DNA from: Archangiaceae bacterium
Lineage (GTDB): Bacteria; Myxococcota; Myxococcia; Myxococcales; Myxococcaceae
Direction: 5' to 3'
DNA: 49,843 bases
NCBI GenBank assembly: GCA_016879935.1
Contig: JAACJQ010000183.1
Span: forward strand, 1-49,843
Shown: piece after piece, positions 19,329 to 24,066 of the stretch
Numbering within the stretch: the first letter of the stretch is position 1
Layout: each line of letters opens with the position of its first letter
The notes under the pieces: model-generated
What the model was told of the DNA's origin: nothing
Databases searched by the model: none
Seen by the model: the letters and a program-made list of their open reading frames with translations, nothing else
Made by a program: the position numbers and the translations under genes

Positions 19329-21989
<2,661 letters not shown>

Positions 21990-22004: not shown

Positions 22005-23066
22005 TCAGCGAATGGTGAGGGGCTCGAGGCCCGAGAGGCGCTGCACCGTGTGGGGCGCGCCGACGACGTGGGGCTTCTGGCTCTTCACCGCCTGCGCGAT
22101 GGCCGCGATGTGCGCGGGGGTGGAGCCGCAGCAGCCACCGACGAGGTTGAGCCAGCCCTGCTTCGCGAAGTCGCCGAGCACGTTGGCCATGTCGGCCGGC
22201 GTCTCGTCGTAGCCGCCGAAGGCGTTGGGCAGGCCCGCGTTCGGGTAGCAGCTCACGTAGCACTCGGCGACCTGCGCGAGCTCTTCGACGTAGGGCCGCA
22301 TGTCCTTCCCGCCGAGGGCGCAGTTGATGCCCACCGAGAACGGCTTCGCGTGGCGAATCGAGTTGTAGAACGCGGTGATGGTCTGGCCCGAGAGCGTGCG
22401 GCCCGAGCGGTCGGTGATGGTGACCGACACCATGACGGGCACGCGATAGCCGACCTCGTCGAAGACACCCTCGATGGCGAAGAGCGCGGCCTTCGAGTTG
22501 AGCGTGTCGAAGATGGTCTCGACCAGCAGCGCATCGACGCCGCCTTCGAGGAGCGCGCGAATCTGCTCGGTGTACGCGTCGACGACCTGGTTCCACGTGA
22601 CGGCGCGGTACTCGGGGCGGTTCACGTCGGGCGAGAGCGAGAGCGTGCGGTTGAGCGGCCCGATGGCCCCGGCGATGAAACACGTGCGGCCCGGCGTCTT
22701 CGCCTCGGCCTTCTCGACGGCGCGGCGCGCACACGCGATGGCGGCCAGGTTCATCGCTTTGACGTGCGGCTCGAGCTTGAAGTCGGCCTGCGCAATGGAG
22801 GTCGCTCCGAAGGTGTTCGTCTCGATGACGTCTGCGCCGGCCTCGAGGTACTGCAGGTGAATGGCCTCGATGACGTCGGGCCGGGTGATGCAGAGCACGT
22901 CGGAGTTGTTCTTCAGCTCGTGCGGGTGCGTCTTGAACTGCTCGCCGCGGTAGTCGGCCTCGCCGAGCTTGTACGTCTGCACCATCGAGCCCATCGCGCC
23001 GTCGAGCACGACGATGCGTTCGGCGAAGAGCTTCTCGAGGGCCTGGCTTCTGGGTGGAGTGGGCAT
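22005..23066 (-). CDS. metH: Methionine synthase, homocysteine-binding part
   Basis: 353 aa from the ATG at 23066; a GTG at 23099 is an alternative that would overlap the upstream gene. It is the Zn-dependent homocysteine S-methyltransferase barrel that activates homocysteine. It starts with RIVVLDGAMGSMVQTY. The zinc ligands are Cys in GINCALGG and the pair in GGCCGSTP. It ends with the linker that in one-piece MetH leads into the pterin domain. The next gene supplies that domain. It lies 16 bp after the regulator stop, so regulator and both metH parts form one operon. A stand-alone MmuM-like enzyme is less likely given this context. Confidence 0.94.
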   Translation of the reverse strand: MPTPPRSQALEKLFAERIVVLDGAMGSMVQTYKLGEADYRGEQFKTHPHELKNNSDVLCITRPDVIEAIHLQYLEAGADVIETNTFGATSIAQADFKLEPHVKAMNLAAIACARRAVEKAEAKTPGRTCFIAGAIGPLNRTLSLSPDVNRPEYRAVTWNQVVDAYTEQIRALLEGGVDALLVETIFDTLNSKAALFAIEGVFDEVGYRVPVMVSVTITDRSGRTLSGQTITAFYNSIRHAKPFSVGINCALGGKDMRPYVEELAQVAECYVSCYPNAGLPNAFGGYDETPADMANVLGDFAKQGWLNLVGGCCGSTPAHIAAIAQAVKSQKPHVVGAPHTVQRLSGLEPLTIR

Positions 23067-23082
23067 GAGGTCGTCTTTCGGT

Positions 23083-24012
23083 TCAGGCGCGCGCTTCACG
23101 AGCGGCGCGTTTCGAGGGCCGGGCGGGCCGGGAGGCAGTGAGCAGGAACGCGCGGAACGGCGAGCTGCCGTCGCGCGGCGTCGAGGTGAGGGTGACGTCG
23201 GTGAAACCGGCGGCGTGCAGCGCGGCTTCGAGCGTCTGCGGCTCGAAGCCCAGATGCTGGTGGCCGAGGCGCGCCTTCACCCAGCCTTCGGCGTGGGGCA
23301 TCAGCTCCATCACCACGACGCGGCCGTTCGGCTTGAGCAGCTGCCCCGCCTGGGTGAGCACGGCTGCCGGGTCGTTCACGTGGTGCAGGCTCTGCGAGAT
23401 GACGACGAGGTCGTGCTTCGGCAGGCCCGCGGGGAGGTCGTGCAGGTCGGCCTCGACGAACGAGACGTTCGAGCGCTTCTCCCTCGAGAGCCGCGCCTTC
23501 GCCTGCTCGAGCGCCGCGGCGCTGCGGTCGATGGCGGTGACGTGCCGGGCCCAGCGTGAGAGCTCGGCCGTCAGCACGCCGGAGCCGCACCCGAAGTCGG
23601 CCACGTCGAGCTTCGGCAAGAGCGACGACAGCGCCGACGCCCACAAGAGCCACGACTGCCCGGGCTCGAGCAGCTTCTCGTTGAGCGTGTGCCGGTCTTC
23701 ACGGCGGCGGAGCAGCTCGGTCAGCCGGGCCTGGTCGCCGTGCGCGTCTTCCGACTTCTGCGCGAGCTGAATGAGCGGCCACCGCGCGTCGGAGGCGTCG
23801 ACGGCGAGCGAGTAATAGGTGAACCCCGCCTGACGCTCTTCGCGGATCAGCTCGAGGGCTTTGAGCTTCGCGAGGTGGTGCGAGACCGACGACTGCGCCA
23901 CCCCGATGAGCGAGACGACCTCGCTCACGTTCAGCTTGGCCACCGCCACCAGCCGCAGAATGCGCAGCCGCGTCGGGTCGCCCAGGGCGTGGAAGGTCTC
24001 TGACAGCTCCAT
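23083..24012 (-). CDS. ArsR-family regulator fused to a SAM-methyltransferase domain (SahR-like)
   Basis: 309 aa. Residues 1-90 are an ArsR winged helix (FHALGDPTRLRILRL, then SSVSHHLAKLKALELI as recognition helix). Residues about 125-300 are a class I methyltransferase fold with motif I DFGCGSG (139-145) and VVISQSLHHVNDP. This two-domain architecture matches SahR, the repressor of methionine-cycle genes described in Proteobacteria, where the methyltransferase-like domain senses S-adenosylhomocysteine. The gene heads an operon with both metH parts, which fits. No metal-binding Cys pair typical of metal-sensing ArsR is seen. A palindromic site overlaps its start codon, suggesting autoregulation. 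Confidence 0.85.
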   Translation of the reverse strand: MELSETFHALGDPTRLRILRLVAVAKLNVSEVVSLIGVAQSSVSHHLAKLKALELIREERQAGFTYYSLAVDASDARWPLIQLAQKSEDAHGDQARLTELLRRREDRHTLNEKLLEPGQSWLLWASALSSLLPKLDVADFGCGSGVLTAELSRWARHVTAIDRSAAALEQAKARLSREKRSNVSFVEADLHDLPAGLPKHDLVVISQSLHHVNDPAAVLTQAGQLLKPNGRVVVMELMPHAEGWVKARLGHQHLGFEPQTLEAALHAAGFTDVTLTSTPRDGSSPFRAFLLTASRPARPSKRAAREARA

Positions 24013-24040
24013 ATCGGTATATCGATGTACGTCGATATGG
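24009..24040. promoter_or_regulatory. Candidate operator of the SahR-like regulator
   Basis: CCATATCG (24009-24016) and CGATATGG (24033-24040) are a perfect inverted repeat. Between them lies another ATATCGAT (24019-24026) and the self-complementary GTAC. In total there are three ATATCG half-sites within 32 bp. The region is AT-rich against a very GC-rich background. It overlaps the regulator's ATG (24010-24012) and lies about 60 bp from the divergent lipoprotein start. The position and symmetry fit an ArsR-type operator. Confidence 0.65.
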
Positions 24041-24066
24041 AGTGTCGCGCAAGTCGAGCCGCTTTC

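Follow-up and report, generated by a model that had tools for sequence, protein, structure and literature searches.

The window analysed here is a stretch of 49,843 nucleotides from an Archangiaceae bacterium. It carries a gene for a 309-aa protein, called sahR-like below, in which Pfam recognises an ArsR-type helix-turn-helix (HTH_5, PF01022) and a methyltransferase domain (Methyltransf_11/25) (Table 1). The AlphaFold model of this protein has a mean pLDDT of 87 and a pTM of 0.63, and in a fold comparison its methyltransferase domain aligned with many SAM- or SAH-bound enzymes (Z 18-21). Solved structures found by sequence were separate ArsR-type and methyltransferase proteins, the fused type being absent among the matches listed. 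Both parts of a split methionine synthase, hmt and methC, were identified by Pfam downstream on the same strand, confirming an earlier note on this DNA that had placed the ArsR-methyltransferase gene at the head of a split metH operon. The order sahR-hmt-methC is common to Myxococcaceae and SAR324, with protein identities of 37-45%.

Table 1. Coordinates of the genes and sequence elements discussed (window positions unless a locus is named).
Feature	Position	Strand	Remarks
sahR-like gene, 309 aa	23083..24012	-	ArsR HTH at residues 12-57; class I methyltransferase domain at about 133-274
hmt, homocysteine S-methyltransferase part of split methionine synthase	22005..23099	-	PF02574, 2.5e-93; probable ATG at 23066
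methC, pterin-binding / B12-binding / activation part of split methionine synthase	19329..21989	-	PF00809, PF02607, PF02310, PF02965
Divergent lipoprotein-like gene, 1059 aa	24103-27282	+	
ATG start codon of the regulator	24012..24010	-	directly 3' of GAT(22); start-methionine column invariant in the protein alignment
24-bp operator frame ATCGACGTACATCGATATACCGAT	24013..24036	-	ATC(1) 24034-24036; GAT(14) 24021-24023; GAT(22) 24013-24015
Inner 20-bp palindrome ATATCGACGTACATCGATAT (coding strand)	24019..24038	-	9/10 pairs; SahR type ATC-N10-GAT; proposed main operator
Outer inverted repeat, arms CTCCATATCG (24007-24016) and CGATATGGAG (24033-24042)	24007..24042	.	perfect 10 bp, 16 nt between arms
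-10-like hexamer TACATC, weak	24024..24029	-	inside the operator; matched by position to relatives
-35-like hexamer TTGCGC	24047..24052	-	17 nt before the -10-like hexamer; own match poor
ahcY-linked paralogue	L075 404-1411 (G000:C326)	coding strand	same genome as the window

Three ATATCG half-sites (24011-24016 and 24019-24024 on the forward strand, and 24033-24038 as CGATAT) lie at the start of the sahR-like gene, where the earlier note had placed them, in a 36-bp patch whose G+C is 44%, the window as a whole having 68.7%; just 11 other 36-base positions have a higher A+T content. The perfect inverted repeat noted before was found again and is longer than described. Relatives retain its ATC/GAT core but not the outermost bases. 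A 10-bp repeat at exactly this 16-nt spacing arises at a mean of 0.3 per random window and is not very rare, whereas 40 random windows with matched dinucleotide composition gave no palindrome like the inner one; both figures come from a first-order Markov model, outside which kinship lies. The outer pair of half-sites that had been taken as the repeat does hold the most widely conserved triplets, ATC(1) and GAT(22), but the inner 20-bp palindrome, stronger in the window, had been missed. Triplet 9 of the 24-bp frame is ACA in the window, not ATC. The ATG falls inside the half-site 24010-24016, within one arm of the outer repeat. The claim that the site overlaps the start codon is thus correct for the third half-site alone, as 6 nt separate the inner palindrome from the ATG.

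Orthologues of the 309-aa protein were present in 47 of the 50 sampled family genomes (its own genome counted). Lack of conservation among orthologues, which the earlier note had named as fatal to its proposal, was not what we observed: the site is kept at the same place upstream in 30 orthologues and in 51 named loci, including those of Myxococcus xanthus, Corallococcus, Archangium, Hyalangium and Pyxidicoccus. Among 49 distinct Myxococcaceae sequences (duplicates removed), it has a fixed position relative to the ATG, with ATC(1) in 49 and GAT(22) in 47; these sequences are related, so that the counts are not independent events. As a control, equal triplets at matching upstream offsets were seen in 0 or 1. 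Mean information was 1.45 bits inside the frame compared to 0.34 upstream. In the main type (40/49) the ATG comes directly after GAT(22), with ATC(1) in 40/40, GAT(14) in 34/40 and GAT(22) in 38/40, and in the second type (9/49) it overlaps the last triplet as GATG, with ATC(1) in 9/9, ATC(9) in 6/9 and GAT(22) in 9/9; these type counts are slightly circular because the triplets themselves helped to decide the type (ATG at 25 or 23), a circularity that does not touch the constant position of ATC(1) and GAT(22) seen in the alignments. The aligned relatives showed no covariation between the arms, because the key bases never change. One sequence record, L126 (BNCN01000011.1), is titled "Comamonas sp. 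KCTC 72670" and contains a Myxococcus-like operon and operator; its label is probably wrong.

The position of the site between two genes would also fit a role in the expression of the divergent lipoprotein-like gene. The chances of this are very slim, as the site is kept beside the operon in relatives and the divergent gene is not (one distant match among 51 loci).

The literal pattern ATATCG-N2-CGATAT, taken from a suggestion of the earlier note, had no match. In the 9.5-Mb genome, ATATCG-N8-CGATAT was present in one copy with 0 mismatches and in none with 1; a scan allowing 2 mismatches gave 38 further places, which we took for background coding matches. A 16-base degenerate pattern matched mainly at the sahR-like gene in 17 genomes (reversed control, 0-1 per strand). 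When the ATG was included in the pattern, 11 of the 12 Myxococcaceae genomes searched had exact or near-exact matches and the twelfth had none. The match was single copy in 10 of the 12, genome G114 having one extra match with 1 mismatch, and reversed controls gave 0 in the 12 genomes. One-mismatch sites in L046, L054, L059, L060 and L062-L064 were in or beside unrelated ORFs and were discarded. Judged by its sequence, the site is a real, single-copy control element.

Of the genes near which the earlier note had advised looking for further copies (metH, metK, metF and ahcY), the metH operon of relatives has the site. It was not found at metF and metK of the window genome, and ahcY of that genome is without it (best matrix score 11.9 vs 26.5). 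This ahcY is preceded by a second ArsR-methyltransferase gene, encoding a protein of 335 aa that is 31% identical to that of the window. The paralogue lies directly before ahcY in the window genome and in six relatives, and its conserved AT-rich upstream patch TTGCATTCATGCGCATGGACGAATATTCA is built differently from the metH-operon site. In genomes G068 and G027, a SahR-like site is found before a metK-ahcY pair (L072 164-183, L080 3200-3219), and in G027 the metK ATG comes directly after the second half-site. In a tree covering Myxococcota, SAR324 and two Methylobacterium proteins, whose deepest joins are long branches that are not to be trusted, the metH-linked proteins (Myxococcaceae, SAR324, other Myxococcota), the ahcY-linked proteins of the phylum and the paralogue family of the window genome were separate. 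A SahR regulon would comprise several SAM-cycle operons including ahcY, and we found one near-exact site in the genome. Since regulon size is known from published work to vary between lineages, this single site limits the claim to a classical regulon, not the kinship with the family.

Outside the Myxococcaceae, the pair ATC-N18-GAT was present upstream of the regulator in 26 of 27 SAR324-type loci, compared to 0.8 expected from mononucleotide randomisation, a model outside which kinship again lies. An ATG follows the pair at once in L150, L155, L164 and L171, and by eye also in L167. Many SAR324 loci have the pair 39-72 nt upstream of the ATG, and several SAR324-type loci have a clear TTGnnn-N17-TATAAT 11 nt before the ATG. 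In another SAR324-type locus (L170), a three-triplet site is followed by an ATG that does not share the regulator's reading frame, with a Shine-Dalgarno-like AAGGAGG after it. In 18 loci of other Myxococcota, the regulator heads hmt-methC or ahcY. At least three triplets of ATC(1)-ATC(9)-GAT(14)-GAT(22) were present in 17 of these 18 (0.01 expected, by the same randomisation and with the same reservation on kinship), with all four in 6 and three in 11. About half of the 18 have an in-frame ATG from position 23, within the last triplet. L187, L188, L185 and L180 combine the full ATC-ATC-GAT-GAT with an ATG inside the last triplet, before metH or ahcY; an example of the doubled site is ATCCGTCTATCCGGATATACGGAT in L188. 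Since positions 1/14 and 9/22 both form ATC-N10-GAT, the frame can be read as a pair of interleaved SahR sites offset by 8 bp.

No pair is retained as widely as ATC(1) and GAT(22), in the Myxococcaceae as well as in the SAR324-type loci, and this could also mean that the real operator is the outer 24-bp ATC-N18-GAT, contacted by a single dimer in an extended fashion, with the inner ATC-N10-GAT a lineage-specific addition. We consider this possible but rather doubtful: four or three triplets in the other Myxococcota are what two interleaved ATC-N10-GAT sites predict, GAT(14) is kept in most main-type Myxococcaceae, and the published SahR site is ATC-N10-GAT. The SahR system of Myxococcota and SAR324 may have come apart into separate autorepressors that each serve a single operon, metH in one case and ahcY in the other, and each have an operator of their own. 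The ancestral operator would be a 24-bp doubled site, ATC-ATC-GAT-GAT, its last triplet touching or containing the start codon of a leaderless transcript. We give this scenario an even chance. If true, it would mean that a protein-binding site and a translation start evolve as one element.

No Shine-Dalgarno sequence was detected before sahR in any of 52 Myxococcaceae starts (threshold dG -5 or below), which extends to the family what the earlier note had seen in the window. Elsewhere in the same genomes, such sequences precede the next gene in 84%, ahcY in 59% and methC in 49%. A generic sigma-70 scan found no promoter, and what is said here of a promoter is drawn from the alignment of relatives only. 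Most relatives have TATGTT as the -10-like element, and the window's TACATC matches the -10 consensus poorly; at the -35-like place, TTG is present in 26 of 41 and TGG, CTG or CTT in the rest. From the conserved spacing of these elements, transcription is predicted to begin some 3-6 nt upstream of the ATG, the window's own hexamers being weak. A short or absent leader is likely, and the best reading of the locus would be a nearly leaderless, self-repressing operon. Among delta-proteobacteria, leaderless genes were detected in 8 of 33 genomes, and their share in these was estimated at about 16% (PMC3160421).

The conserved patch spans the -10-like element and the ATG, and an AT-rich -10 region would be expected to be conserved in any case. 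One could thus argue that the patch serves chiefly as promoter and start region, that the palindrome is secondary, and that the regulator has its binding site elsewhere or acts on other genes. This is improbable as the ATC/GAT spacing persists where the distance to the start codon changes, as in many SAR324 loci, the triplets are no requirement of known -10 elements, and their spacing is that of the published SahR consensus. It is also hard to see the palindrome as incidental and the metH operon as under the control of an RNA element, even if SAH or SAM riboswitches do control methionine genes of other Proteobacteria (PMC4239095): the predicted leader is too short to contain one, and a search of this locus, the ahcY locus and that of M. 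xanthus gave no Rfam family at E up to 1. We consider this extremely unlikely.

We propose instead, with a probability of roughly 0.85, that 24013-24038 is the operator of a SahR-like autorepressor that controls sahR and the metH genes, is released by SAH and has its transcript start near the ATG. The proposal builds on features that can be read from the DNA (the site, its conservation, the operon, the missing Shine-Dalgarno sequence and the single copy per genome). The ATC-N10-GAT spacing, conserved among orthologues, fits the 20-bp palindrome published for SahR (PMC4239095), and the methyltransferase domain matches SAH-bound structures; both favor the SahR-like operator that the earlier note had suspected at this gene. 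A repressor dimer would bind ATC-N10-GAT (24019-24038) over the -10 region and so repress its own gene and both metH genes, carried on one transcript. By analogy with characterised SahR, SAH in the methyltransferase-like domain would release the repressor when the methyl cycle backs up. Transcription would start within a few bases of the ATG and the regulator would be translated without a Shine-Dalgarno sequence. The extra GAT beside the ATG might give the protein an additional contact, or be what is left of a second site interleaved with the first. The earlier note had also envisaged that binding blocks access to the start. We dropped this as a separate mechanism, since a DNA-bound protein blocks transcription and leaves the start codon of the mRNA open to ribosomes.

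If this model is correct, SAH-responsive control of methionine synthase would extend to a phylum for which no earlier description was found, with an operator locked to the start codon over a large evolutionary distance (Myxococcaceae and relatives across two phyla). The locus would offer a test case for leaderless initiation and DNA-level repression using the same bases, and another for the break-up of a multi-operon regulon into regulators that each serve one operon from a site of their own. In annotation, the single-copy motif could help in naming the sahR-like gene.

Several known systems resemble this one in part. In Methylobacterium, ArsR-methyltransferase genes on a chromid or megaplasmid (L196, L197) also stand before hmt-methC, with 28-30% identity, and have an autoregulatory-looking perfect 20-bp palindrome, ACATAAAGATATCTTTATGT, upstream; this is of another sequence type, however, and not at the start codon. 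The AcuR repressor of acuI-dddL is likewise encoded by the first gene of its own operon, leaderless and without a Shine-Dalgarno sequence, with its operator beside the start (PMC3017554). AcuR, however, is a TetR-family protein with acrylate as inducer, unrelated in protein and pathway, and its leaderless start was mapped experimentally (PMC3017554). SamR of the Xanthomonadales is a SahR-like ArsR regulator beside metH1/metH2 with a longer, 24-bp palindrome (PMC4239095). It differs in being about 30% identical to SahR and in having a large methionine regulon, the sites being compared here by description (PMC4239095).

The closest system is SahR itself (Novichkov et al. 2014), an SAH-responsive, autoregulated ArsR-family regulator of methyl-cycle genes (PMC4239095, PMC8877191). 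It is known from alpha-, delta- and some gamma-proteobacteria and binds a 20-bp palindrome whose ATC-10 nt-GAT is common to SamR (PMC4239095). The delta groups of the 2014 survey were Desulfovibrionales and Desulfuromonadales only, and Myxococcota are never mentioned (PMC4239095); our literature search for SahR in myxobacteria found nothing relevant. As with SahR, which is known here by its published description, the protein joins an ArsR HTH to a SAM/SAH-binding methyltransferase-like domain (by Pfam, model and fold comparison), its gene has a 20-bp ATC-N10-GAT palindrome upstream, and it is linked to the methyl cycle, through hmt-methC in the window and relatives and through hmt-methC or ahcY across the phylum. 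Published SahR regulons comprise several operons (sahR, ahcY, metH, metF, metK), with metH among the core targets, whereas here there is one site per genome, a separate paralogue at ahcY, and an operator that abuts the start codon and is often a 24-bp doubled site. What is new relative to known SahR is the lineage, the one site per genome, the doubled operator and the start codon tied to the operator.
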